Source of the DNA: a virus | IMG/VR virus record: IMGVR_UViG_3300009593_002493 | Coordinates: 1 to 29,440 of that record | Strand: one strand, 5' to 3' | DNA length: 29,440 bases | Part shown: piece by piece, positions 2,484 to 29,082 of the stretch | Numbering within the stretch: position 1 is the stretch's first letter | Layout of the letters: each line of letters begins with the position of its first letter | Program-made: the position numbers and the translations under genes | The notes under the pieces: model-generated | Told to the model about the DNA's origin: nothing | Seen by the model: only the letters and a program-made list of their open reading frames with translations | Databases searched by the model: none

Positions 2484-3419
2484 ATGAAGATCATTTCAGG
2501 TAATGCTAACATTGAGTTAGCAAACAGGATCGCAGAACATTGCTTTGCACCAATAGTTCCTGCAAACGTAACAGCCTTTGCTGATGGGGAAATCAGCGTC
2601 GAGTTTTTAGAAAATATTAGAGGAGAAGATGTCTTTATTATTAATTCTACGTCGACACCAGTTAATGACAACTTAATGGAATTAATGATAATGATAGATG
2701 CGGCTAGAAGATCTAGTGCTGACAGAATAACTGCTGTCATTCCTTATTATGGATATGCTCGACAAGATCGTAAGAGTGCAAGTCGTACTCCAATAACTGC
2801 AAAACTTGTTGCCAACTTATTAACTAAGTCTGGTGCAGATAGAATCTTAACTATGGATCTTCATGCAGGACAGATACAAGGATTCTTTGACATTCCAGTT
2901 GATGACTTAACAAGCAGGATTGCATTTGCAAAAGATATAAAAGAAAAGATTGATGTTGAAAATAACTCTTTAATATTTGTATCTCCTGATGCAGGAGGAG
3001 TTGTTAGAGCTCGTAAGTTTGCTGACATGTTTAACGGAGACATTGCTATTGTTGATAAACGTAGACCTAAAGCAGGAGTTAGCGAAGTTATGAACTTAAT
3101 TGGTGATGTTAAAGACCAACATGCTATATTAGTTGATGACATTGTTGATTCAGCTGGAACATTAGTTAATGCCGCCAAAGCAATTAAAGACGCAGGAGCA
3201 TTGAGTGTTAGAGCTTATATAACTCATGGAGTCTTAAGCAATGATGCACATCAAAAGATAGAAAAGAGTGTACTTGAAGAACTAGTAGTAACAGATAGCA
3301 TAAACTCAAGACCAATTAGTAAGTTTAAAAAGATAAGAGAAGTTACAGTAGGCCCAATGTTTGGTGAAGCCATTCGTAGAATTACTAACGAAGAATCAGT
3401 TAGCACTCTATTCAGGTAA
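2484..3419 (+). CDS. prs: Ribose-phosphate pyrophosphokinase (PRPP synthetase)
   Basis: This 311-residue protein is full length for the family (E. coli Prs has 315). It makes phosphoribosyl pyrophosphate from ribose 5-phosphate and ATP, the precursor for purines, pyrimidines, NAD and histidine. Visible motifs are the N-terminal FADGEISVEF, the ATP-binding stretch YYGYARQDRK followed by SRTPITAKLVAN, the metal-binding DLHAGQIQGFFD, and the PRPP loop VDDIVDSAGTL. ATG 2484 is preceded by a weak AAAGG. The 3' end overlaps the convergent lipase gene by 12 bases. Together with phosphate import and ribonucleotide reductase it fits a nucleotide-supply programme. All recognisable catalytic motifs are intact, so it is probably active. 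Confidence 0.96.
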   Translation: MKIISGNANIELANRIAEHCFAPIVPANVTAFADGEISVEFLENIRGEDVFIINSTSTPVNDNLMELMIMIDAARRSSADRITAVIPYYGYARQDRKSASRTPITAKLVANLLTKSGADRILTMDLHAGQIQGFFDIPVDDLTSRIAFAKDIKEKIDVENNSLIFVSPDAGGVVRARKFADMFNGDIAIVDKRRPKAGVSEVMNLIGDVKDQHAILVDDIVDSAGTLVNAAKAIKDAGALSVRAYITHGVLSNDAHQKIEKSVLEELVVTDSINSRPISKFKKIREVTVGPMFGEAIRRITNEESVSTLFR

Positions 3420-6687: not shown

Positions 6688-7095
6688 ATGAGAATAACTG
6701 ATATGCTTAATGAAGATGAGTTTAACACAATAAGAACTGACCTTCATGATGCCGATTGGGAACAACCAAAAAGCGTCTACGATATGACAGACGAACAAAA
6801 AAGATTAGTACAAATAGGACAAAGAATTAAGGCCGCATTAAGCCCTAAAACAGGTGATGTTAAATGGGATTCAGATGAAGAATGGCTAGATGCAATGAAA
6901 CTTTCTGAAGTTTTAATTGACGCAGGAAAAAATGATAAAGATCTTGGGCCAATGATTAAAGCAAGTGGAATTGATGTTAAAAGAGCAATGAGTATTATTG
7001 AAAAAGTCAAAAAAGGCAACGTTGATATTACTAAACACACAGACGGCGACCATGATGGCGTTGACAAGTTAGCTAAAGCAGTAGCAGACGCATAA
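6688..7095 (+). CDS. Small phage protein with capsid-targeting-like N-terminus
   Basis: A 135-residue acidic, helical protein of unknown function. It begins MRITDMLNE-DE, which matches the T4 internal-protein type of N-terminus (an acidic residue, two hydrophobics, then x-E) followed by an L-N-E prohead-protease site. A C-terminal HTDGDHDGVDKL segment is calcium-loop-like (DxDHDGxD) but too short to assign. It follows the ligase-like gene after a GGAG site, and its TAA overlaps the next ATG (TAATG). Confidence 0.65.
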   Translation: MRITDMLNEDEFNTIRTDLHDADWEQPKSVYDMTDEQKRLVQIGQRIKAALSPKTGDVKWDSDEEWLDAMKLSEVLIDAGKNDKDLGPMIKASGIDVKRAMSIIEKVKKGNVDITKHTDGDHDGVDKLAKAVADA

Positions 7096-7970
7096 TGGAA
7101 TTCATTCAAGAGTTACATGAAGCAAGAATGACTCGTAATACTGCGGGTCTTAAAACTCTTACATACACAGATTGTTGTGAGAGAACTTACCTCACAATGT
7201 TAATTCTTGAAATACTAAGACGTTTTCCACAAACTGCTCCTTATGCTCACGGATATGCAAAAAAGACATCAGGATACGACAACTATAAACATTTTAGAAT
7301 AAGTGGTACTGACTTATATAACTTTGTTTACTTTATTGTTGGCGATGACCAAGCACAGGATAAACTTAAAGATCCAGGTGCGGCTAAGAAGATAAGAGAA
7401 CGAACGTTCTTTCCAACAATGGCATTTAACAGATATGTAATTAATCTTAGTAGAGGAATAACTCCAACTTCAACAGATGGACAATTTTTTATTAAGATGG
7501 AAGGCGCATTAAAAATAACTAATGCAGATTACAAGGCTGTAAGAAGAAGTATCTTTAGTTTTAATAGCATATCTACAAGAGATAAGAAGAAGGCTGTAAC
7601 TAGACTTTTACTCGCGGCAAGAGCAAAACTAAGAAACAGTGACTTAATACAATACTTAGAAGAACTGTCCTCAAGAGCAGACTTAGAAGTATACAAAGTA
7701 ACAGACCCAGAACCTAAAGTAAGTTTACCTGACATCGACGTAACAGGCAAAGACCTTGCAGGATATAGATACCTTGTAGGGTCTAAGAACTTAATGCTTA
7801 CAAAAAAGTTTTTAGAATTAGCAAAAGACGGCAAAAGTATTCCTAGCCCAATGGTACAAGCATACATTCCTGCAATATCTATGATAGATAATATAGTAAA
7901 AGCAGGCCCGGGATTCGTACAAATGCTAAGAACACTCGAAAATCGAGCCAAAAAAAGCCCTAATAGCTAG
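7095..7970 (+). CDS. Conserved phage protein of unknown function
   Basis: A 291-residue soluble protein with no catalytic motif I can name. It opens MEFIQELHE-A, again an internal-head-protein-like start with an L-H-E cleavage site at residues 7-9. A Tyr/His-rich stretch follows (YAHGYAKKTSGYDNYKHF, about 50-68), and the C-terminal half is lysine-rich and helical. It is translationally coupled to the preceding gene through TAATG and ends before a late promoter, so it closes the 4230-7970 operon. A packaged or assembly role is inferred from position and N-terminus only. Confidence 0.65.
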   Translation: MEFIQELHEARMTRNTAGLKTLTYTDCCERTYLTMLILEILRRFPQTAPYAHGYAKKTSGYDNYKHFRISGTDLYNFVYFIVGDDQAQDKLKDPGAAKKIRERTFFPTMAFNRYVINLSRGITPTSTDGQFFIKMEGALKITNADYKAVRRSIFSFNSISTRDKKKAVTRLLLAARAKLRNSDLIQYLEELSSRADLEVYKVTDPEPKVSLPDIDVTGKDLAGYRYLVGSKNLMLTKKFLELAKDGKSIPSPMVQAYIPAISMIDNIVKAGPGFVQMLRTLENRAKKSPNS

Positions 7971-7985
7971 TAATTTCCTATAATT

Positions 7986-8022
7986 GGTAAATACATATAA
8001 CAACTTCGTAGAGTAACGAAGT
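7986..8022 (+). promoter_or_regulatory. Late promoter and leader hairpin
   Basis: GGTAAATA (7986-7993) is a T4-like late promoter motif. The predicted transcript would start near 7999 and carry a hairpin, ACTTCGT (8003-8009) with ACGAAGT (8016-8022), before an AGGAG site (8042-8046) and ATG 8054. A 5' hairpin can protect an abundant mRNA from decay. Confidence 0.5.
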
Positions 8023-8053
8023 ATGTCATTAAGAGAAAATATAGGAGAAAACA

Positions 8054-8398
8054 ATGGCAGGAATAACAAAAGTAAATCCAACAGCTACTACATTAGGTTA
8101 TGAAGTAGTTGGTAAAGACGTACAGTTCTTTACAATTGATTACATCAATGCAATCAACGGTTCAGCAGGACCAGCTGGTGCACAAAAAGCAGTATTAGAT
8201 ACAATCATGAATACAGCTACAATTTTGTCAGCAGGACCATTAGGTAACTCAAACACAGAACAGACTTTCATGACTGAAGGTGCTGACTCAGTTGTAGTTG
8301 CTACATTACAAGCGGCTATCAGAGCATTAGGTACAGTTGACTCAGTTGACTTATCAGGCGCTACTGTAAATGCTAAAACACTTGTAATTGCTGTATAA
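8054..8398 (+). CDS. Small virion-type protein, single-gene transcription unit
   Basis: A 114-residue protein rich in Ala, Thr, Ser, Val and Gly with no charged clusters. It looks like a beta-rich structural or decoration protein, starting MAGITKVNPTATT and ending AKTLVIAV. It has its own late promoter and leader hairpin upstream and a strong terminator 34 bases downstream. That arrangement is typical of abundantly made virion proteins and contrasts with the overlapping genes on both sides. No family is recognisable, so capsid decoration is an inference. Confidence 0.65.
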   Translation: MAGITKVNPTATTLGYEVVGKDVQFFTIDYINAINGSAGPAGAQKAVLDTIMNTATILSAGPLGNSNTEQTFMTEGADSVVVATLQAAIRALGTVDSVDLSGATVNAKTLVIAV

Positions 8399-8431
8399 TA
8401 ATAGTAATTAAGTTTTTTACTAAAAACAATT

Positions 8432-8466
8432 AAAGGGCTCATTCACATTGTTTGAGCCCTTTTTTT
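8432..8466 (+). terminator. Strong rho-independent terminator
   Basis: AAAGGGCTCA (8432-8441) pairs with TGAGCCCTTT (8453-8462), a perfect 10-bp stem with an 11-base loop, followed by a T run to 8466. Confidence 0.9.
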
Positions 8467-8472
8467 ATGACC

Positions 8473-8480
8473 GGTAAATA
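8473..8480 (+). promoter_or_regulatory. Late promoter placing the start at the AUG
   Basis: GGTAAATA ends at 8480 and the ATG begins at 8486. In T4 late promoters transcription starts about six bases after the octamer, so the mRNA of the next gene would begin at or next to its AUG. There is no Shine-Dalgarno sequence in between. Confidence 0.5.
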
Positions 8481-8485
8481 GATGT

Positions 8486-8917
8486 ATGAAAGTTTATTCT
8501 CTCATAGATATAACCGAAACAAAAAGTTATCGATCAAATAGTAAAGATACATTAATGATCGATCAGCAGGCCAACTTCATGACATTAATACAGACTTTGA
8601 CGTTAGGTACAAACTTTTTTTACGACAAACCACCCACTTTACAGAAGTTTACAGAAAATAAATTAAAAAAAATTGGCTTCGGAACTGCATACAAAGGAAG
8701 CCATAACGTATGGTGCCTAGAGTTAAGAGTTGACGAAGGAAGAACGGAGCCTAGTCTTGATATTCTGGAGGCAGACTTTGATTTAGTACCAGTGATACCT
8801 GACCTAAAAGAAACAATACAGATAAATAATAACGTATTTAGAACATCAGATAAAAAGGCAAAAAACATAATATTTGAGCAGGCTGTAGAGGAAAACATTG
8901 AACATAATCAGGCATAG
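8486..8917 (+). CDS. Conserved phage protein of unknown function, candidate leaderless gene
   Basis: A 143-residue soluble protein (MKVYSLIDITETKSYRS...). The first half is mixed alpha/beta with the motif IGFGTAYKGSHNVWCLELRV (about 66-85), and the C-terminal third is acidic. I recognise no catalytic motif or family. It follows a strong terminator and lies directly at a late promoter with no ribosome binding site, so translation from a leaderless message is likely. An upstream ATG at 8482 is in another frame. A structural role is suggested by the neighbourhood only. Confidence 0.65.
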   Translation: MKVYSLIDITETKSYRSNSKDTLMIDQQANFMTLIQTLTLGTNFFYDKPPTLQKFTENKLKKIGFGTAYKGSHNVWCLELRVDEGRTEPSLDILEADFDLVPVIPDLKETIQINNNVFRTSDKKAKNIIFEQAVEENIEHNQA

Positions 8918-8964
8918 TATACGAGGCCCCTTCCAAGAGAATAAAAGGAACGGAGATATAGATT

Positions 8965-9201
8965 ATGGCAAGAGCCACAAAATTAGAGCGTGAGAGTTTA
9001 GAAGCACATGTCGACTTGTGCGAACAAAGATATATTAATTTAGAAACACGCCTTGAGAAAATTGAGATGAAGGTGGAGCATATCCACGCTGACATCACCA
9101 AAGGGAACTCAGCAATGATGAAAGTAGTTCTAGGTGCAACGGGTACTATTGTAGCTGGTTTACTTTCCACAATAGTTGTTCTCTTAATTTCCTTTAACTA
9201 A
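8965..9201 (+). CDS. Small coiled-coil protein with C-terminal membrane anchor
   Basis: A 78-residue protein. Residues 5-45 form a heptad-like charged helix (LERESLEAHVDLCEQRY...LETRLEKIEMKVEHI), followed by one hydrophobic segment (about 52-76, VVLGATGTIVAGLLSTIVVLL). The layout resembles XhlA-type phage membrane proteins found near lysis or structural genes, but there is no direct motif. CGGAG lies ten bases before ATG. It would sit in the inner membrane with the coiled coil on one side. Confidence 0.6.
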   Translation: MARATKLERESLEAHVDLCEQRYINLETRLEKIEMKVEHIHADITKGNSAMMKVVLGATGTIVAGLLSTIVVLLISFN

Positions 9202-9212
9202 CCCCCAATAAA

Positions 9213-9220
9213 CATAAATA
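9213..9220 (+). promoter_or_regulatory. Late promoter placing the start at the AUG
   Basis: CATAAATA ends at 9220 and ATG begins at 9226, the same five-base gap (CTGTT) seen before the gene at 8486. No Shine-Dalgarno sequence is present. Confidence 0.55.
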
Positions 9221-9225
9221 CTGTT

Positions 9226-9510
9226 ATGCTAGTAACAGAAATCATCACCTCAGACCTTAGTGAAAAACAAATATGGGGACGTCGCGGCAAAAAGCTAGTA
9301 CGTAAGTACAGATGCATGGGCGGTAGACGTAAAGGCCGTATTGTTGCTAATATGGCACAATGTTTTGCGGCTCCTAATATGAAAGCTAGGATGGCAATGA
9401 AGAAGACTAGAGCAAGATTAGGTGCTAGAATGGCTAGGAAAGCACGTAGAACTAAACGTACAAATCCAGCTTCAATTGCACTACGTAGATTAAACAAAAG
9501 AGCAAGTTAA
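9226..9510 (+). CDS. Very basic internal-head-type protein, paralogue 1
   Basis: A 94-residue, strongly basic protein (many Arg/Lys, especially 48-90), expected to bind nucleic acid. It opens MLVTEIITSDLSE, a capsid-targeting-like start with L-S-E at 11-13 as a possible protease site. The central segment LVRKYRC-(x5)-RKGRIVANMAQC has two cysteines 14 residues apart and aligns with the protein at 9849. The position and composition fit a DNA-condensing protein packaged in the capsid. It appears to be leaderless. Its stop overlaps the next ATG (TAATG). Confidence 0.7.
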   Translation: MLVTEIITSDLSEKQIWGRRGKKLVRKYRCMGGRRKGRIVANMAQCFAAPNMKARMAMKKTRARLGARMARKARRTKRTNPASIALRRLNKRAS

Positions 9511-9671
9511 TGACTAGTAAGAAACAATCTAAATCACGTTTAGAACCAGAAGAATTTAAAAGTCATTTGGAAAATATTTTATCAATTCCTAAAATGGAAA
9601 AGAAAATAGTACCAGAACATCCATACTGTACCAATTGGCCAACAGGAGATAATAAAGATGCTATCAAATAA
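9510..9671 (+). CDS. Small conserved phage protein, 53 residues
   Basis: The gene starts at ATG 9510 through a TAATG junction with the previous gene and ends at TAA 9669-9671, overlapping the next gene by 14 bases. The protein is charged and soluble, with EPEEFKSHLENILSIPKMEK followed by PEHPYCTNWPTGD. It has no recognisable domain. Tight packing on both sides and sustained coding character support it as real. Confidence 0.6.
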   Translation: MTSKKQSKSRLEPEEFKSHLENILSIPKMEKKIVPEHPYCTNWPTGDNKDAIK

Positions 9672-9858
9672 ATGTAAATTACATTTAGAATCAGTTGAAG
9701 AAACAGGATTTCAACACATGATAACAGCATTAAAGACAGCAATGAAGTTACAACTTCTTGTGCCAGCACTTATTATTCATAGTGTTGCTCCTAGATTTTT
9801 TACTACAACAGCATCTGATGTAATGAAAAGTATTTTAGAGAGTAGAATATGCAAATAG
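9658..9858 (+). CDS. DUF6356-like small membrane protein
   Basis: A 66-residue protein. The sequence HLESVEETGFQHMITALKTA (9-28), followed by a hydrophobic stretch LLVPALIIHSVAPRFFTTTASD, matches the pattern I know from small DUF6356 proteins of phages and bacteria (H-x2-SVGET-x3-H, then a membrane helix ending in TAS/TGS). One membrane segment is expected. The function of the family is unknown. AGGAG at 9644-9648 supports ATG 9658, and the gene overlaps both neighbours. Confidence 0.65.
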   Translation: MLSNKCKLHLESVEETGFQHMITALKTAMKLQLLVPALIIHSVAPRFFTTTASDVMKSILESRICK

Positions 9859-10169
9859 CAGATATAATACCTGAAGGTGCAGTACAAGTCTTTGGTAGAA
9901 ACAAAGGCAAAGTTGTAAGAAAATATAGATGTACATCTGGACAGAAAAAAGGACGTATTGTTGCAAAGCCTACAACTTGTAGTTCACCTATAAGAGTTTC
10001 AAGTAGAATATCTATGAAGAAAGCTAAAGCTAGAAGATCTCCATTAATTAAAATTAAAAGTAGATATACAAAAAGAATGAGTCCTACTAGTAGACGTTTA
10101 ACAAGATTAAATAAAACTAGATTAAAGCCAACTAGAAGATCAACCGCAAAACGTAGGAGAATGAAGTGA
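9849..10169 (+). CDS. Very basic internal-head-type protein, paralogue 2
   Basis: A 106-residue, extremely basic protein. It starts MQIADIIPE-G, a near-perfect T4-type capsid-targeting peptide with I-P-E at 7-9. It shares VRKYRCTSGQKKGRIVA and a second Cys (KPTTC) with the protein at 9226, so the two are paralogues. The C-terminal 50 residues are an Arg/Lys/Ser/Thr tail ending KRRRMK, like histone or protamine tails. A packaged DNA-binding role is likely but inferred. The start overlaps the previous gene by 10 bases and its TGA overlaps the next GTG. Confidence 0.7.
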   Translation: MQIADIIPEGAVQVFGRNKGKVVRKYRCTSGQKKGRIVAKPTTCSSPIRVSSRISMKKAKARRSPLIKIKSRYTKRMSPTSRRLTRLNKTRLKPTRRSTAKRRRMK

Positions 10170-10576
10170 GAATAGATGAAATTATTCCAGTAGTAGCAAG
10201 AGTTGCCGCACCAATTGCAGGTAAGATTGTGTCCAGAGTTGGAAACAAAATGGGCAAAGGACCTGCTAAACTTCCTAATACAGCAATTAATAGAAAAGCT
10301 CAACAAGCAACAAAAATAGCTAGTCAACAATTAGCTACCAAACTACTTAAACCAGGACAAAAGTTAGCTATTGGCGGAGCCGAAGTAGTAGTAGATAAAG
10401 TCCAAGGAAAAGAAGTAACACTAGCAGATCCAAAAAATAAACAAGGCCCTAAGACAGTATTACAAAAATCAGATCCTAACATATCTGGAGCAATCCAAGC
10501 TATGGCAGGCGCACAAGCACCAGGAGGCGGCGCTAGAACACAACCAGCTCAAGCGGCGGCAGTAAGAAAAGTATGA
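10166..10576 (+). CDS. Basic Ala/Gln-rich phage protein with capsid-targeting-like start
   Basis: A 136-residue protein read from GTG 10166 (GTGA overlap with the preceding stop). It opens MRIDEIIPVV, like its neighbours, but lacks an early I/L-x-E, so it may keep its N-terminus or be cut elsewhere. The body is basic to about residue 60, has a small beta-rich part (KLAIGGAEVVVDKVQGKEVTL, 68-88), and ends in a low-complexity Ala/Gly/Gln/Pro tail (110-136). The function is unknown; an internal-head protein is plausible. Confidence 0.6.
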   Translation: MRIDEIIPVVARVAAPIAGKIVSRVGNKMGKGPAKLPNTAINRKAQQATKIASQQLATKLLKPGQKLAIGGAEVVVDKVQGKEVTLADPKNKQGPKTVLQKSDPNISGAIQAMAGAQAPGGGARTQPAQAAAVRKV

Positions 10577-10782
10577 AAATAAACGAGCTTATAACTGAAT
10601 TTCATATCCAAAGAAGCAATGAAGAACAAGCTGTGCTTGATAAGTGCAAAGAAGCTAGATCATTTGATAGTTTTCCCGAAAGAGAACGTTCCATATTAGA
10701 GACTCTAATACGTAAAGCATTAGTAAGTAAAGTAATAGATGGAAGAACTATAATGGTCATAGCTAATGAGCTACAACAATAA
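10573..10782 (+). CDS. Small phage protein with capsid-targeting-like N-terminus
   Basis: A 69-residue protein beginning MKINELITE-F, with I-T-E at 7-9 as a likely prohead-protease site. The mature part would be a charged helical domain (EEQAVLDKCKEARSF, then RERSILETLIRKALV). It starts inside the preceding stop (ATGA) and overlaps the next gene by 17 bases. No domain is recognised. Confidence 0.6.
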   Translation: MKINELITEFHIQRSNEEQAVLDKCKEARSFDSFPERERSILETLIRKALVSKVIDGRTIMVIANELQQ

Positions 10783-11188
10783 TAAAGAACTTACAGAACA
10801 ATTAGAAGAAATTATAGAAGCTGGATTAGTCGATGTTGCTATTCCTTTTGAAAAAGGTAATAGTATTCGAATAAAGCATATGATAATTCGAAAACATCAT
10901 AACGGCTATAGACTTTTTAATTTAACTACTAACAAGCATGTTTGTACTACGTTTACTAAAACTGCGGCGTTAGCAATAGCAAAAATGACTGTTGAAAAGA
11001 CTAATTTTGACCTAAAAGCTGTAATAAAGCTAGATGATACAGTATCAAAGTACTATATGGATGCTTTATATGCAAAAAGAGGCATGAAAACAAGTGATAG
11101 TCCCCATCATGAAACCCAATTCGATATAGCTTACGATAAGGCGTGGACCGCTTTATCGGATATAGAAAGATATATATTTGATAAATAA
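10766..11188 (+). CDS. Conserved phage protein of unknown function
   Basis: A 140-residue soluble protein, MSYNNNKELTEQLEEIIEAGLVDVAIPFEKGNSIRIK and onward. It has a beta-rich first half with YRLFNLTTNKHVCTTFTKTAALAIAK (about 48-73), resembling a small domain that presents a Cys and aromatic residues, and a helical C-terminus. It lacks the shared N-terminal tag of its neighbours. It is the last gene before the late promoter at 11180, which lies in its final codons. No function can be assigned. Confidence 0.6.
   Translation: MSYNNNKELTEQLEEIIEAGLVDVAIPFEKGNSIRIKHMIIRKHHNGYRLFNLTTNKHVCTTFTKTAALAIAKMTVEKTNFDLKAVIKLDDTVSKYYMDALYAKRGMKTSDSPHHETQFDIAYDKAWTALSDIERYIFDK
11180..11187 (+). promoter_or_regulatory. 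Late promoter for the frameshifted gene
   Basis: GATAAATA (11180-11187) lies inside the last codons of the preceding gene. The predicted start near 11193 is followed by AAAGGA (11207-11212) and ATG 11220, a normal leader of about 27 bases. Confidence 0.5.
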
Positions 11189-11219
11189 AAGTAAGGATAG
11201 TTAATAAAAGGAATAAACA

Positions 11220-12077
11220 ATGCTAGTAAGAGAATTTTCAACAAAACCTTCAGTCGAGAAACTGAATGAGAATCTTTCCAAGCAATTTGGAGAAAAGATC
11301 GATGTATCTAAGTTTACAATTGAACAATTAGAAGATGCACGTAACAAAATTAGAACAAAGTTATCACAAGTAGAACAACACGAAAAATTTGAATCTGTAC
11401 ACAATAGCGATGTATACCAAAAAAATAAATTATTCCTAGACATCCTTAATACTGCTATTGCTGAAAGAGACGAAGAAGATGATAAGAAAATGGTTGTAAC
11501 AAACGCAGACAAAATGTCAAACACTAAGGCATGGCAAAATTATAAAAAAGGCGACAAACGTTACAAAGCCGCGGCAGACCTTAAAGAAGGTGCAGAAGAA
11601 AGTGCGGCACTTACTATGGCCGCTAAGGACATGGTTGATAGAGTCACAGGCTGGATGGAAGACACAGCAGAAATGCAAACTGAATCTATGCTAGAGATAG
11701 GCGATAAAATTAGAGACGAAATGGGTGTTGACCGATCAGAAGAATTTATCGGCGCTGTTAAACCAGCACTCGAAAGTTTATTCACGTCATTGGAGAGCAC
11801 CAGAGATGCCTTAACAAGTGGCGTAGCCATTTTGACAGGCGAAGGCGCACCAGCTACAATGGGCGATGAAGTTCCTGGAGACGATGCAGAAATGGATATG
11901 GAGCCAATCGACGGCGAAGAACCAGGAATGGAACCAAGCGACCCAGAAGGCGACGAGTTTGGCACTTCAGGTGCTTCCGCAGGAGGCGATGAAATGTCCG
12001 ACAGGGGCAAACGCGAGAGCGTTGAATTAAGTAAAAGATTAGGTTTGCTCTTAGCAGACTCAAAAAAAAAGGACTAG
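11220..12077 (+). CDS. Virion-block protein, zero-frame product of a frameshifted gene
   Basis: A 285-residue protein. It opens MLVREFSTKPSVEKLNE with L-N-E at 15-17, again a capsid-targeting-like start plus protease site. A helical charged region (20-110) is followed by an Ala-rich helical region, then a very acidic low-complexity segment rich in Asp, Glu, Gly, Pro and Met (about 218-265). The zero frame ends DSKKKD-stop immediately after nine A residues. The -1 frame is open from the slip site for another 105 codons, so a minority 389-residue product is likely. The acidic middle resembles scaffold or core proteins. Function unknown. Confidence 0.75.
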   Translation: MLVREFSTKPSVEKLNENLSKQFGEKIDVSKFTIEQLEDARNKIRTKLSQVEQHEKFESVHNSDVYQKNKLFLDILNTAIAERDEEDDKKMVVTNADKMSNTKAWQNYKKGDKRYKAAADLKEGAEESAALTMAAKDMVDRVTGWMEDTAEMQTESMLEIGDKIRDEMGVDRSEEFIGAVKPALESLFTSLESTRDALTSGVAILTGEGAPATMGDEVPGDDAEMDMEPIDGEEPGMEPSDPEGDEFGTSGASAGGDEMSDRGKRESVELSKRLGLLLADSKKKD

Positions 12078-12101
12078 AGGAAGCCAACGCAACTTCTACT
12101 A
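12065..12101 (+). promoter_or_regulatory. Programmed -1 frameshift site: A AAA AAG slip plus hairpin
   Basis: In the reading frame of the gene at 11220, bases 12065-12071 read A AAA AAG, the heptamer used by E. coli dnaX. The zero-frame stop (TAG 12075-12077) comes two codons later. A hairpin follows after three bases: TAGAGGAAG (12075-12083) pairs with CTTCTACTA (12093-12101) with one A/A mismatch and one G-U, loop of nine bases. A missing A in a homopolymer of nine would give the same picture, so assembly error must be kept in mind. Confidence 0.65.
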
Positions 12102-12388
12102 ATACCAGAGATGGTTTAGCCCAAATACTTCATTTAAAACTTAACCAAGGCGCAACTAGAGTAAGTTGGGACGATTTAAATAGTTTTCTAGACAACGTAG
12201 GCAGTGAACACTTTGATCAACAGAGTTTTGTACAGGCATACAACAACGACAAAAGAATTCAAGATTTAGTTGACAGTTTTGACGAAAATGGTGTTGTATT
12301 AAAAGGTGGAGAAGCACCACAATCAGAACCAGAAGACAAAACTGTCGACAAAATGGCTTCTAGAGCTTCCAAAAAATTCAACTCATAA
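12071..12388 (+). CDS. -1 frame extension of the 11220 protein
   Basis: Read from GGA 12071 after a -1 slip, this frame is open for 105 codons to TAA 12386-12388 and has no good start codon of its own near the junction. It encodes an ordinary globular segment (LAQILHLKLNQGATRVSWDD, FLDNVGSEHFDQQSFVQAYN, DLVDSFDENGVVL) ending in a basic KMASRASKKFNS tail. Without a frameshift this 310-base stretch would be an unexplained gap in a tightly packed block. It should be read as the C-terminal domain of a 389-residue fusion protein. Confidence 0.7.
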   Translation, partial: GLEEANATSTNTRDGLAQILHLKLNQGATRVSWDDLNSFLDNVGSEHFDQQSFVQAYNNDKRIQDLVDSFDENGVVLKGGEAPQSEPEDKTVDKMASRASKKFNS

Positions 12389-12394
12389 AAACAC

Positions 12395-12423
12395 TTGACA
12401 TCTATTAAATAATACTATATAAT
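12395..12423 (+). promoter_or_regulatory. Consensus sigma70 promoter
   Basis: TTGACA (12395-12400) and TATAAT (12418-12423) are both perfect, with a 17-base spacer. It drives the Nfu-like gene, whose AGGAG is at 12430-12434. Confidence 0.9.
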
Positions 12424-12440: not shown

Positions 12441-12797
12441 ATGTCAGAAGAAAATAGATCTGAAGAAGAAATAATCAAAAAAATCAAAGAATTAATAGAA
12501 ACAAATGTCAAGCCAGCAGTTGCAGGCCATGGCGGTGTTATTGACTTTGTTGATTATAACGACGGACATTTAAAACTTATTCTAGGCGGCGCCTGTAGTG
12601 GTTGTGCAAGTAGCACTATCACATTAAAAATGGGTGTTGAAAATATGATAAAACACTACGTACCTGAAGTACATACTGTCTCAGCAGAAGATGATCCAAA
12701 CTCAACGGTAGATCCTTACTATGCAATGGATCCGTTTATGGAAAACTTTGACAAGTATGAAAGTTGGAATACTGATGAGTCTACTAAGAAAGAATAA
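12441..12797 (+). CDS. Nfu/NifU C-terminal-domain Fe-S cluster carrier
   Basis: A 118-residue protein. Residues 10-75 match the NifU-like domain: IKELIETNVKPAVAGHGGVIDFV, then LKLILGGACSGCASSTITLKMGVENMI. The C-S-G-C pair is the family's CxxC cluster-binding motif. Such proteins carry a [4Fe-4S] cluster, bound at a dimer interface, to client enzymes. The acidic C-terminal tail (85-118) is extra. It has its own consensus sigma70 promoter, suggesting early expression. Nearby iron enzymes (the 2OG oxygenase, RNR beta) show a general demand for iron but are not Fe-S clients; the link is speculative. A nfuA-like gene, with the N-terminal degenerate A-type domain absent. Confidence 0.88.
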   Translation: MSEENRSEEEIIKKIKELIETNVKPAVAGHGGVIDFVDYNDGHLKLILGGACSGCASSTITLKMGVENMIKHYVPEVHTVSAEDDPNSTVDPYYAMDPFMENFDKYESWNTDESTKKE

Positions 12798-13770: not shown

Positions 13771-14967
13771 ATGACAAACATAAAAATAACAACACACCCA
13801 ACAGGTAGATCCCCTGAGAACAAATACTTTTTTGGAGAAAGGACTAGATGCTTAGATCTAACTAGACCTAAGTTTAATAAAATAGGTAAAGAAGAAGACT
13901 TTATGGTATTTTATACTTTACTACAACAACAAACAAATTACTTAGAACCTATGAACTTTGAAACAGTAGGAACTAATTTTACAATACACACTAACGACGA
14001 ACGTCACAAACAATTTGTTTGGAACATGTTTAAAGTGACTGCTGAAGACCAACATGGGGATTGGACTATATGGCACAACACAAGCATCGAAATGGAACCT
14101 AAAATATATGTGCATTTAGATAAGAAACTACTGCTCATTGCAGGTACAACATTTTTAGGAGAAATTAAAAAAGGTGTGTTTGGTATTATAAGTTTTGTAC
14201 TACCAAAGTATGATAGACTTCCTATGCATTGTGGAGCATTTACATATAGGAATACTACTAATCTTATGTTTGGGTTAAGTGGTACAGGTAAAACTACATT
14301 ATCAAGTGATCCTGATTATAAACTTATTAGCGATGATGAAGTAGTTTGGAGTAACATGGGCATTAGAATGATCGAAACAGGTTGCTATGCTAAAAGCGAA
14401 GGCTTAACACCTGAAACACATCCTACAATCTTTAATGCAGTAGAAGAAGCAAGGAGAAGGGATACACTAGTTGAAGAAAATCCTGATGCCTTAAATGCTA
14501 GATTAAGTTACCCTATTAGCTGTGTAGAAAATGCTTATCATAAACGGAGTAACTTTGATCATGCAGATAACATATTCTTTTTAACTATGGATGCCGAAGG
14601 TGTGTTTCCATCTATAAGCAGAATAAGTGGCGATACAGTTCGTAAGTTTTTTGAAACAGGATACACTAGTCAAATGCCAGGAACAGAAGCAGGTGATGAC
14701 GAAATAAAACGTACATTCTCTCCTTGCTATGGATCACCCTTTATGCCAAGAGATGTAAAAGTATACAGTGATATGCTTATAGATAAAGTAGAACAGCATA
14801 ACACAAATGTATTTTTAGTAAACACAGGCATGAACCCAGAGACAGGCGAAAGATTTGCATTAGATTATACACGGAATACAATTAAACAAGCAATACAAAC
14901 TGAGTATCCTTTACAAGATACAAGTAGTGAAGTATTAAAAACATTAGAAGGACTAATAGGAGAGTAA
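13771..14967 (+). CDS. pckA: ATP-type phosphoenolpyruvate carboxykinase, short phage form
   Basis: A 398-residue homologue of PckA, against about 520-540 for cellular enzymes. It converts oxaloacetate plus ATP to PEP, CO2 and ADP, the entry step of gluconeogenesis. Catalytic parts are present: TGRSPENK (11-18, substrate Arg13), GEIKKGVFG (Lys133/134), MHCG (His153), the kinase P-loop GLSGTGKTTLS (168-178), SDDE (Asp188/189), ECYAK-like TGCYAK and NARLSYPI (Arg244). The N-terminal domain is shortened and the last 80-100 residues of the cellular enzyme are missing after TRNTIKQAIQ. It would steer TCA-cycle carbon to sugars and pentoses for nucleotides. The enzyme looks active by residues, but the missing C-terminus leaves doubt. 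Confidence 0.92.
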   Translation: MTNIKITTHPTGRSPENKYFFGERTRCLDLTRPKFNKIGKEEDFMVFYTLLQQQTNYLEPMNFETVGTNFTIHTNDERHKQFVWNMFKVTAEDQHGDWTIWHNTSIEMEPKIYVHLDKKLLLIAGTTFLGEIKKGVFGIISFVLPKYDRLPMHCGAFTYRNTTNLMFGLSGTGKTTLSSDPDYKLISDDEVVWSNMGIRMIETGCYAKSEGLTPETHPTIFNAVEEARRRDTLVEENPDALNARLSYPISCVENAYHKRSNFDHADNIFFLTMDAEGVFPSISRISGDTVRKFFETGYTSQMPGTEAGDDEIKRTFSPCYGSPFMPRDVKVYSDMLIDKVEQHNTNVFLVNTGMNPETGERFALDYTRNTIKQAIQTEYPLQDTSSEVLKTLEGLIGE

Positions 14968-15677: not shown

Positions 15678-17294
15678 GTGGCAGTCGTACAGATATCTAG
15701 AATACAAATAAGAAGAGGGCAGAAGAATCAAGGTTCTGGAGTTCCTCAATTATCAGGTGGTGAATTAGGTTGGGCTGTTGATGCAAGAGAATTATACATA
15801 GGTAATGGTTCAGTTGCAGAAGGTGCACCAGCAGTTGGCAACACAAAAATTATTACACAACACGACGACTTGTTTACATTAGCAGATAGCTACACTTACT
15901 TAGGTGGAACAACAGTTCAAACAGGAACAACAGCAACTTCACCAATAAAAAGAACACTACAAGCAAGACTAGATGAAATAGTAAGCATTAAGTCATTTGG
16001 TGGTATCGGAGACGGAACAGATCAAACTGTAGCAATACAAAGAGCTATAGACCAATTATATCTTAATAGTGCAACTAAAGGTACAGAAGGAAGTAGAGTA
16101 AAATTACATTTTCCAGCAGGTGTATATGGAATATCAGGAACAATTTACCTTCCTCCATTTGCTAATTTAATAGGCGAAGGTTGGGACAAAACAAAATTTA
16201 ATATGACCAATAGTGCTTCAGCATTTCAAACTGTTAACAGTAGCAGTACTCCAGGAAGTTATGCTGACGATAGTTCTAGTACAACTCTTAACCAAGCATC
16301 AGGAATACATTTTTCAGGATTTACAATCGCTACTATATCTACTACAAATCCAGCTATAGTTTTACAGAGTTGTAAAGAAGGAAACTTTAGTGATATTAAA
16401 ATTACAGGTCCTTGGACAACAGGTACAGCTATTACTGCAACTAATGCCGCAATTAAAATGGGATCTTTAAGTACTCTAGTAGGAACACACAAAAATAAAT
16501 TTGATCACATATCTATAAATGGATTTAGTACAGGAATTGGAAGTGACGACGATGCATACGACAATAACTTTAATAATTCATTTGTTGCATCTTGTGGACG
16601 TGGTGTATACTTTGGAGAAAATACATCTATAGGTTCACAAGGACAAGCAACAGGTCCAAGTAGAAACACATTTAGTCAATGTAAATTTGAAGACATTGAC
16701 AAAGAGGCTATTAATATAATCAAAGGCGTAGACAATATTAGTTCACATAATAAATTTACTGGAGTTGGTAATGTTGGCGGAAACGAAGGCAATGCCCAAT
16801 ATCCTGTAATTGATTATGTAACACAAAATAATTCAGTTGAAGACATTTTTTCAAGAACAAACGATTTATCTAACAACCAAACTTACTTAACATCTTTTCC
16901 ATACATATCAGAAATTAAAGGCAAAGTTAATGCAAGAATAGGTGGATTCATGTCGCTTAACGTGACAGAGCAATCATCACCAACTTACTTTTTTAGACTA
17001 CCAGGCGATGTTTCTAAAACTTATGAAGTTGAATACTATTATAATAGTGGCTTAGTTAACGCACAACGAAGTGGTAAGATGACGTTTCAGTTAGATACTG
17101 GTAATAATACACTAAATTTTATTGACGATCACGAATACCAAGGAGATGCTAATTATGAGACAGCACTCCAGTTTACAGCCGCTATGGTAAACACAAATGG
17201 ACAAGTAGGGGTTGACACAATCATAGTTTCTATGTTAAACTCTACTACAAATGATACAGGAAGTTTCAACTATAAAATTAAAGTTTTAGGGTAA
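15678..17294 (+). CDS. Tail spike or fibre with right-handed beta-helix
   Basis: A 538-residue virion protein. Residues 5-50 (ISRIQIRRGQK, GGELGWAVDARELYIGNG) match the N-terminal module seen in phage receptor-binding proteins (Mtd-N type). Residues 98-125 (IVSIKSFGGIGDGTDQTVAI-QRAID) match the start of pectate-lyase-type beta-helices (Pect_lyase_3), followed by Asn/Gly/Ser/Thr-rich coils to about 400 and a beta-rich C-terminal domain. Such spikes bind and often cut surface polysaccharide, so this may decide host range. GTG 15678 follows AAGGAG by seven bases. Catalytic residues cannot be picked from sequence alone. Confidence 0.82.
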   Translation: MAVVQISRIQIRRGQKNQGSGVPQLSGGELGWAVDARELYIGNGSVAEGAPAVGNTKIITQHDDLFTLADSYTYLGGTTVQTGTTATSPIKRTLQARLDEIVSIKSFGGIGDGTDQTVAIQRAIDQLYLNSATKGTEGSRVKLHFPAGVYGISGTIYLPPFANLIGEGWDKTKFNMTNSASAFQTVNSSSTPGSYADDSSSTTLNQASGIHFSGFTIATISTTNPAIVLQSCKEGNFSDIKITGPWTTGTAITATNAAIKMGSLSTLVGTHKNKFDHISINGFSTGIGSDDDAYDNNFNNSFVASCGRGVYFGENTSIGSQGQATGPSRNTFSQCKFEDIDKEAINIIKGVDNISSHNKFTGVGNVGGNEGNAQYPVIDYVTQNNSVEDIFSRTNDLSNNQTYLTSFPYISEIKGKVNARIGGFMSLNVTEQSSPTYFFRLPGDVSKTYEVEYYYNSGLVNAQRSGKMTFQLDTGNNTLNFIDDHEYQGDANYETALQFTAAMVNTNGQVGVDTIIVSMLNSTTNDTGSFNYKIKVLG

Positions 17295-27347: not shown

Positions 27348-27800
27348 ATGACTATGCATTTAGAAAGAGGGCTAACAACTCTCAATACTCGTAAGCCAAA
27401 AAAGAAGAAATTATCATTGGCTCAAATTGATAAGTACAGTAAGCAACTAAAGATGCACAATAAAGATATGCGTCGATTAGGTTGTCACGATTTGCAAATG
27501 GATTTGGACACGTTCATTGCATATATCAGAGGAGAACTCAAACCAAGGGCAACTTCAATAAACAGAACCGAGCCAATTTATACTCGTCCACAGCAAGGTA
27601 CTGATAGAATTGTCGAGACTAAAAACTTGGATCAATTTGCACCCGCATTAAAGAAAGATTCACTTCAATATACTGGAACCAGACGACTAGTGGGGATAGC
27701 CACCATGCATAAGTCAAATATGGTTCCTATTTTTGCGGATGACGATGATAAAACAGGCAGTAAACAGGCAACAGACATAGCACAAATGAGGAGGAACTAA
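27348..27800 (+). CDS. Conserved phage protein of unknown function
   Basis: A 150-residue protein, basic in its first third (NTRKPKKKKLSLAQIDKYSKQLKMHNKDMRRLG), then DLQMDLDTFIAYIRGEL, an extended Pro/Thr/Gln-rich middle and a C-terminal GTRRLVGIATMHKSNMVPIFADDD. The last block recurs in T4-like marine phage proteins I recognise only as conserved hypotheticals. Its AGGAG is the right arm of the hairpin at 27300-27342. It is coupled to the hydrolase gene by TAATG. Confidence 0.65.
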   Translation: MTMHLERGLTTLNTRKPKKKKLSLAQIDKYSKQLKMHNKDMRRLGCHDLQMDLDTFIAYIRGELKPRATSINRTEPIYTRPQQGTDRIVETKNLDQFAPALKKDSLQYTGTRRLVGIATMHKSNMVPIFADDDDKTGSKQATDIAQMRRN

Positions 27801-28420
27801 TGTTAGCATTTTACATTTTAATGGCAGAGCTTAAATATTATATGAGGTTAATGTTTAAGTTAGCTTCGACATTGTTTTGTATATTGTTTATGGTCCCGAT
27901 GACGTATGCGGGTGCAGTAACTTTGCAAGGCGCAGTTGAAGGAGAACTATACACATCGGAAACTCATCCAGAATTATACTGTTTGGCGGCAAACATTTAT
28001 TTTGAAGCCAAGTCGGAACCAGTAGCTGGACAGTTTGCCGTATCCGACGTTGTTTTAAATAGAGTAAACGAAGCTCGGTACCCCAATACAATATGTGAAG
28101 TAGTATTGGACGGACCAACTCGTGAATCTTGGAAAACAAAGCAACACAAAGATTTGCCCGAAGACGAGAGAGTCTTCAATCCAATAAGAAACAAGTGTCA
28201 ATTTTCTTGGTACTGTGATGGCAAGTCAGATACAATTAGAGATAACGATGCTTGGCGTAAAGCACAAGAAATTGCTTATAGAATTGTAAACGAGAACAAG
28301 TTTAGAGGGATTACAGAAGGAGCAACTCACTACCATGCTACTTATGTAAGTCCAAGGTGGGCACCTCAACTTGACTTAGTCGGTAGAATAGGAACACATA
28401 TATTTTATAGATGGCCATAA
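27800..28420 (+). CDS. SleB-type cell wall hydrolase
   Basis: A 206-residue peptidoglycan hydrolase of the SleB/Hydrolase_2 type. YCLAANIYFEAKSEPVAGQFAVSDVVLNRV with the conserved Glu, PNTICEVV, CQFSWYCDG and GATHYHATYVSPRWA match the family. A hydrophobic segment (about 18-36, KLASTLFCILFMVPMTYAGA) is a likely signal peptide or signal-anchor. GAGGAGG five bases before ATG 27800 supports the start. It could act as an endolysin reaching the periplasm by Sec export, or as a virion wall enzyme. It overlaps the next gene by ten bases. Confidence 0.85.
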   Translation: MLAFYILMAELKYYMRLMFKLASTLFCILFMVPMTYAGAVTLQGAVEGELYTSETHPELYCLAANIYFEAKSEPVAGQFAVSDVVLNRVNEARYPNTICEVVLDGPTRESWKTKQHKDLPEDERVFNPIRNKCQFSWYCDGKSDTIRDNDAWRKAQEIAYRIVNENKFRGITEGATHYHATYVSPRWAPQLDLVGRIGTHIFYRWP

Positions 28421-29082
28421 AACTTTGGAAAAAGATACCGGTTAAGATACGACGAACATTTTACTTCTTATTGTTTTGGATTTTATCCATAGTCATATCT
28501 TATGGTTCAGGAACTTTTCAACCGAACTACCTGGTATTAAACAAAATTACAAAAGATGCATTTGCTCAAGTTCAATCTGAATATTTAGATTACGGATTGT
28601 ACGAGCCAGAAATGATATACGACACAAACGAACAGTTCGTTACAGCCGTTAATAAATGTATCAGTTATGTTAACTTATCTACACCACCAGATGAAAGAGT
28701 CCATGCACATATTATTATTGCTATGGCTATCTTAGAAACTGGTTATGGTAATAGTAGGTTTGCTAAAGAAGGTAACAACTTATTTGGTATTAGAACGTGG
28801 GACGAAAAGGCACCACAACTAAAACCAAAGGGCAATCCAGATGCTAAATGGGGAGTTAAAGTATACATTACTAAATGTAAGTCCGTTAAAGATATGATAA
28901 GAATCATTAACGAACTTGATGTATATAAAAAGTTTCGAGAAGAAAGAGCAAACCAATTAGCAACAGGAACTCCAAACCTTGGAGAAATGATTAATCATTT
29001 AAGTCCTTGGAGCACCAATCCAAGATACACAAGACTAGTAATATCAAAGGTTAATCAAATACAAGAACTTTTGAGCAACTAG
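28411..29082 (+). CDS. Bax/FlgJ-type glucosaminidase
   Basis: A 223-residue protein. One N-terminal membrane segment (about 16-32, FYFLLFWILSIVISYGS) is followed by the glucosaminidase core: HAHIIIAMAILETGYGNSRFAKEGNNLFGIRTW with the catalytic Glu in ILETGYG, then a C-terminal helical part ending in NPRYTRLVISKVNQI. Family members cut the glycan chain of peptidoglycan. The overlap with the SleB-type gene suggests they act together. A signal anchor would hold it in the inner membrane facing the wall. Confidence 0.85.
   Translation: MAIKLWKKIPVKIRRTFYFLLFWILSIVISYGSGTFQPNYLVLNKITKDAFAQVQSEYLDYGLYEPEMIYDTNEQFVTAVNKCISYVNLSTPPDERVHAHIIIAMAILETGYGNSRFAKEGNNLFGIRTWDEKAPQLKPKGNPDAKWGVKVYITKCKSVKDMIRIINELDVYKKFREERANQLATGTPNLGEMINHLSPWSTNPRYTRLVISKVNQIQELLSN

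Follow-up and report, generated by a model that had tools for sequence, protein, structure and literature searches.

The frameshift at a run of nine A's in this virus DNA is, as judged from comparison of related sequences, real, strongly conserved and programmed, and the phage gene family that carries it is new. The stretch analyzed here, which we call the window, is a virus record of 29,440 bases with 36% G+C. On its plus strand, the zero frame of the gene runs from ATG at 11220 to TAG at 12075–12077 and encodes an N part of 285 residues (ORF at 11220–12077), with a 3′ end that reads TCA AAA AAA AAG GAC TAG. The nine A's (12062–12070, plus strand) are the only run of at least nine A's or T's in the window, and two slippery heptamers lie in phase there on the same strand, A AAA AAA at 12062–12068 and A AAA AAG at 12065–12071. 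The −1 frame has no stop between 12035 and 12385 and reaches its stop codon at 12386–12388, giving a C part of 105 codons plus stop (12071–12388, plus strand) that is winged-helix-like in a predicted model. In the window this frame holds no ATG, GTG or TTG before codon 40 after the slip, and codon 40 is inside the conserved domain; because no earlier start exists, the full 105-codon extension can be reached only via a frame change. Read onward from AAG, the fusion would have 389 residues. The first-pass annotation had proposed a −1 extension at 12065–12388 of a zero frame ending right after the nine A's, with expected products of 285 and 389 residues. The span and both frames are correct, and the conservation of the frame change in relatives supports the expectation of two products. 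The same annotation had taken the gene for a virion-block protein, in agreement with the match of the N part to phrog_14154, a family of virion structural proteins (head and packaging).

A change to the −1 frame at the A run, giving a fusion, is well supported by the relatives. A scan of viral contigs returned 507 of them, and in 77 of the best 80, which were kept, the zero frame has an A9 run at its end. Another four scans, with different family members as queries, raised the total to 330 loci, 324 with the gene, of which 155 are distinct over 450 bases around the stop. Two truncated sequences (L144, L194), one with a mis-picked start (L047) and the window's own copy (L001) were dropped before classification. 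Among the 151 distinct relatives left, 128 are slip-type; the other 23 encode the C part in an independent ORF that has a start and a leader of its own. Of the 128 slip-type relatives, 113 have A9, eight have A10, two A8 and four A6; in L289 the wrong run was picked (it is really A10), and this sequence was omitted from most later counts. A9 or A10 is thereby found in 121 of the 128 as picked, or 122 counting L289. L057 and L330, both cut by a contig end, were left out of the tree, codon-column and extension counts. The sequences share kinship, and all counts refer to sequences rather than independent events.

A FastTree tree of 143 N parts, rooted at its midpoint, has A9 on either side of the root. 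The separate-ORF state requires four changes on this tree, at least three of which starred branches make unavoidable, and a single change accounts for the A6 state. Substitutions in the extension pile up on third positions of the −1 frame. A genome collection contributed two more relatives, both on MAG contigs and both with the A9 arrangement. The family is one of large marine T4-like phages. Two members, L066 and L156, have tandem A9 runs at the zero-frame end, and in L066 the long −1 frame follows the second of its two runs. A tblastn search of 50,697 phage records with the fusion gave partial matches only, none covering more than 80% of the query, and two other family members used as queries against phage records gave no match. 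The best of the partial matches fall on about residues 81–125 of the N part, with approximately 60% identity over 40–45 residues to cyanophage proteins (S-SM2 gp186, Bellamy 171 and others). This points to a motif common to otherwise different proteins.

In these alignments the conserved feature is the length of the run, regardless of codon phase. The Ser codon at which the run starts is TCA in 105 of 105 sequences, and the two codons after it are AAA in 121 of 121 and 115 of 121, respectively; the TCA share among Ser codons of these genes is about 41%, and AAA makes up 54–75% at other conserved Lys columns. Nine A's exceed the seven bases that a heptamer requires. In L013, L017, L018, L020 and L132 (TCG AAA AAA AAA GAC) and in L148 (TCT AAA AAA AAA), nine A's stand in a new phase, reached by two substitutions, one turning the base before the run into G or T and the other turning the following AAG into AAA. 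These phase-moved sites represent few independent events on the tree. Elsewhere such runs are scarce: 489 other ORFs of the same loci (267 kb) have no run of nine or more A's, compared with 20.7 expected from synonymous shuffling, and seven runs of eight A's compared with 35.7 expected. T's in runs of eight or longer are absent from these ORFs, where about eight such runs would be expected. A 262-kb relative (G001) has two A9 sites, both strands summed, and one of them is within the stretch of the homologous gene. Avoidance of A and T runs served to find bacterial slippage cases in the work described in PMC1088944; avoidance of ribosomal slipping could add to the scarcity seen here.

At the window site we favor polymerase slippage, either as the sole mechanism or as the predominant one, with a probability that we put slightly above one half. 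Most decoding would give the 285-residue protein, and at the nine A's some decoding would enter the −1 frame and give the 389-residue fusion. The nine A's would occupy the 9–10 bp RNA–DNA hybrid of RNA polymerase with a hairpin forming just behind, the RNA would realign with one A gained, and ordinary translation would then proceed in the −1 frame. According to PMC5009743, slippage is efficient on nine A's or T's, the hybrid in the polymerase spans 9–10 bp and a nascent stem-loop directly 5′ of the run stimulates slippage; for E. coli RNA polymerase, PMC6260861 gives a requirement of at least seven T's, and of more A's. In Campylobacter phage CPt10, transcriptional slippage was proposed earlier as a possibility for a methyltransferase gene that contains a poly-A tract (PMC2853527).

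A stem-loop of this kind, GGTTTGCT-CTT-AGCAGACT, with eight pairs, is located at 12042–12060 on the plus strand, so that the layout in the window clade is hairpin, one base, nine A's. Both-sided, compensatory changes affect five of its eight pairs in 28 sequences. When the 28 homologous 20-mers are compared, misfits included, 79% of cells pair, relative to 70.8% after shuffling, and the covariation score is 0.298, against 0.207 for shuffled and at most 0.136 for slid alignments. Over the family, 26 of 90 distinct upstream segments fold better than their synonymous versions (p < 0.05), and 41%, compared with 8% in the null set, have a structure of −5 kcal/mol or lower whose end is no more than 3 nt from the run. 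These results support the stem-loop as a genuine RNA element in some members of the family, and it is because of this conserved structure directly upstream of the run that polymerase slippage fits better than the dnaX mechanism. The upstream hairpin was ruled out as a family-wide requirement, since many A9 lineages lack it, e.g., ATTCTTTC-A9.

Ribosomes may contribute as well, given two in-phase slippery heptamers in the window run. They could even do all of the work, by pure −1 programmed frameshifting on A AAA AAA or A AAA AAG, with the two overlapping heptamers explaining the long run and the stimulators varying by lineage; we regard this as a serious possibility that falls not far short of an even chance. 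An in-phase heptamer is present at 127 of 127 slip sites, which counts against a reading that involves the polymerase only, and the A6G clade (four sequences) and the A8 relatives (two) lack A9, which counts against polymerase slippage. In other genes, in-phase A_AAA_AAG is found 27 times where 52 are expected, whereas out of phase it is found 180 times where 181 are expected; because the depletion is seen in phase and not out of phase, ribosomes seem to slip at this sequence. Among the best 80 of the 507 relatives, the zero-frame stop of those with A9 lies 1–8 codons from the run (the first run of L066 aside), again as ribosomal frameshifting would have it. Against an exclusively ribosomal origin, the base before AAA AAA AAG should vary if A AAA AAG sufficed, but A stands there with few exceptions; if A AAA AAA sufficed, AAA should be frequent as the third Lys codon, but A10 is rare (8/128). 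The phase-moved sites have a single in-phase heptamer and still nine A's, and the window clade has no conserved downstream stem. Its upstream hairpin would presumably fall within the ribosome footprint, which also counts against frameshifting by ribosomes alone.

Structure downstream of the run bears on the same choice. The first-pass annotation had pointed to a hairpin shortly after the heptamer as a stimulator, and a hairpin does exist after 12074 in the window (12075–12098, plus strand, approximate limits): the minimum free energy over 60 nt is −12.0 kcal/mol, with z −2.7 relative to dinucleotide shuffles and p 0.046 relative to synonymous-codon shuffles. Its role as a stimulator is doubtful because the close relatives L003–L007 lack it, with p values against the synonymous null of 0.33, 0.11, 0.29, 0.64 and 0.07, respectively. 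In the family at large, 32 of 110 downstream segments of 54 nt fold better than synonymous versions (p < 0.05), an excess that favors ribosomal frameshifting; folding is strongest, among the segments listed, in the A9C/A10 group, the A6G clade, L145, L159, L294, L295 and L297. As a family-wide stimulator, downstream structure was ruled out, being lineage-specific. The A6G clade (L147, L152, L153 and L154) combines an in-phase A AAA AAG with a strong stem five bases downstream and looks like a textbook ribosomal frameshift inside the same family. Ribosomal slipping thus stays in contention, since every slip site has an in-phase heptamer and some lineages have strong downstream stems, and the family appears, from these folding patterns, to use more than one stimulator. 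More than 100 natural versions of one phage slip site are now available, with A9 plus upstream hairpin, A10, A6 plus downstream stem and a separate ORF as alternatives within one family. Run length, hairpin position and codon phase are separable by experiment, as are polymerase and ribosome slipping.

A match of the N part to phrog_14154 was obtained for 60 of the 64 family members scanned. For the C part, no Pfam or PHROGs family held up, and a sequence search of the PDB gave nothing credible (best E 0.2) and nothing for the N part; a likeness of the C part to calmodulin (E 0.26) was dropped as weak. The predicted model of the C part has winged-helix topology (H-E-H-H-E-E) and is confident only in its core. 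Foldseek searches with this model against the PDB and a viral library gave no match at E ≤ 0.001. With VIA-align the best Z was 7.4 (Rok DNA-binding domain), and many winged-helix chains scored Z 5–7, under the tool's secure level. As these fold matches are weak, we use "winged-helix-like" for a topology and not as a family claim.

Directly behind the junction, the window has L-E-E-A (12074–12085, plus strand), a candidate prohead-protease site at which cleavage would be expected after the codon at 12080–12082. Just past the junction, [LIVMF]xE occurs in 120 of 121 distinct extensions, compared with 6.4% of other windows in the C part; followed by A, S, G or T, it occurs in 87 of the 121, compared with 0.7%. 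Its distance from the slip ranges from 3 to 11 residues. In T4, as described in PMC9026906, L/I-X-E is the motif after which the prohead protease gp21 cleaves, and IPIII needs no more than its first ten residues for head targeting; PMC5694885 describes related protease motifs in giant phages. Four large related records were searched for a gp21-type protease, and two encode one; the record from which the window comes is a fragment. We read the gene beside this protease as a gp22-like scaffold. The gp23 homolog of G001 has YLAE-TATAG near residue 40, by our reading where a T4-type maturation cut would fall. Separate-ORF C parts begin with leaders such as MRVSDIILEE and MKIFELYEAG. The N-terminus of the window gene, MLVREF, contains V-R-E only. 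In the window, [LIVMF]xE is found near the N-terminus in nine of the 11 genes at 6688–11220 and in six of 28 elsewhere (Fisher p 0.0009, for a block picked after looking).

From the N-part family, the junction motif, the gp21-type protease and the leaders of separate C ORFs, we infer that the C domain may be delivered to the head by slip fusion and then released by the protease. The N part would act as a head or virion protein. The fusion, a minor component of the prohead, would bring the C domain inside, where a T4-type protease would cut after L/I/V-x-E behind the junction and free it. In lineages that lost the slip, the C domain has a start of its own and a leader with L/I-x-E. If the head-delivery reading is true, recoding would allow a phage to package a minor cargo domain in its capsid; no comparable case was among the papers listed in a mostly open-access survey of the literature. 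The frameshift could also be real with a fusion unrelated to the head, the motif arising by chance or for structural reasons and the C part working elsewhere, which we consider rather unlikely. In its favor, a G-TAA overlap fixes a Val codon in many lineages and so yields some of the motif. The motif is kept, however, while its spacing from the slip ranges over 3 to 11 residues; the 23 separate ORFs have it again in their leaders, and the N part matches a head and packaging family. For the whole best explanation, slippage mainly in transcription together with head delivery of the C domain, we see about an even chance. More tentatively, and well below that, hairpin-assisted polymerase slippage at the nine A's would place a small winged-helix-like domain on a head-bound carrier from which a prohead protease frees it, with sister lineages having changed over to ribosomal frameshifting (A6G plus downstream stem) or to a separate gene with a head-targeting leader of its own.

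Production of the C part alone by re-initiation near the stop, with no fusion in the window, has a precedent in the 23 of 151 distinct relatives with a separate, self-starting ORF, but it is highly improbable here because the first ATG, GTG or TTG of the −1 frame would lie within the conserved domain. Homopolymers are prone to errors, but a sequencing or assembly error, or a decayed gene, is the least probable explanation of all, since A9 and the frame change recur in 113 of the 128 slip-type relatives from many metagenomes and in the two MAG contigs, and since a second record, L002, has an identical gene including the nine A's.

The surroundings of the gene were also annotated. A gene for a NifU-like iron-sulfur scaffold protein (12441–12797; PF01106, E 1.8e-24) adjoins it, and a NifU-like gene is near the family gene in 22 of 50 distinct loci. 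Between the stop of the C part and this gene, at 12395–12423, lies a perfect sigma-70 consensus (TTGACA, 17 nt, TATAAT; 12/12). A phosphoenolpyruvate carboxykinase (PEPCK) gene lies at 13771–14967 (PF01293, E 5.6e-90); no copy was found in the fetched flanks of 50 other distinct loci, and no case of phage-encoded PEPCK was among the matches listed in a literature search. Two small, very basic proteins (9226–9510 and 9849–10169) are candidates for DNA-binding head proteins; in 47 of 50 distinct loci each is encoded close to the family gene. The protein at 15678–17294, with a weak Mtd_N-like start (E 4.2e-5, below the Pfam cut-off), is perhaps a tail fiber. The window also contains a ribose-phosphate pyrophosphokinase-like gene (2484–3419; phrog_619, E 2.7e-50) and two adjoining endolysin-like genes (27800–28420 and 28411–29082).

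Several known systems resemble parts of this arrangement. Like dnaX, to which the first-pass annotation had likened the site, the gene has an A-rich slip site with an in-phase A AAA AAG and both a short and a long product. The likeness stands for the in-phase heptamer and fails in two respects, in that the window lacks a Shine-Dalgarno-like element in range and nine A's are kept. Over the family, a Shine-Dalgarno-like 4-mer 7–18 nt upstream of the heptamer is found at 25 of 127 slip sites, the window not included, and the conserved hairpin of the window is upstream. Homologous dnaX genes may use polymerase or ribosome (PMC5009743). E. coli dnaX relies on a ribosomal frameshift and that of Thermus thermophilus on slippage at nine T's, and in both species the long form is the zero-frame product, whereas here the long form requires the slip. 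An IS element of Roseiflexus also has an inverted repeat directly 5′ of its slip run, but that run is T5C5, from which one C is lost (PMC5009743), whereas the run here is A9 and would need the gain of one A or the loss of two. This difference in the bases lost or gained counts against hairpin-assisted slippage. A9 slips unaided elsewhere, and the stem-loop immediately 5′ of it is present in the window and part of the family, not in all lineages. In bacterial IS elements and mapW, a conserved A9 run likewise joins overlapping ORFs (PMC1088944); the present case differs in being a phage virion gene known from more than 100 distinct sequences, with both slip-type and separate-ORF versions.

The annotation had also compared the gene with tail assembly chaperones (G/GT), which share with it a phage frameshift gene and a minor extended product. 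This analogy does not hold, because the genes that follow are NifU-like, oxygenase-like and PEPCK-like with no tape measure among them, and because the N part matches a head and packaging family. T4 internal head proteins have short N-terminal leaders, and the gene block and the separate C ORFs here likewise show such leaders with L/I-x-E; related genomes encode a gp21-type protease. No match to the T4 internal proteins was obtained in the searches made. Fusions to IPIII are able to bring cargo into the T4 head, according to PMC9026906. Unlike in T4, the cargo here would be joined to its carrier by recoding.
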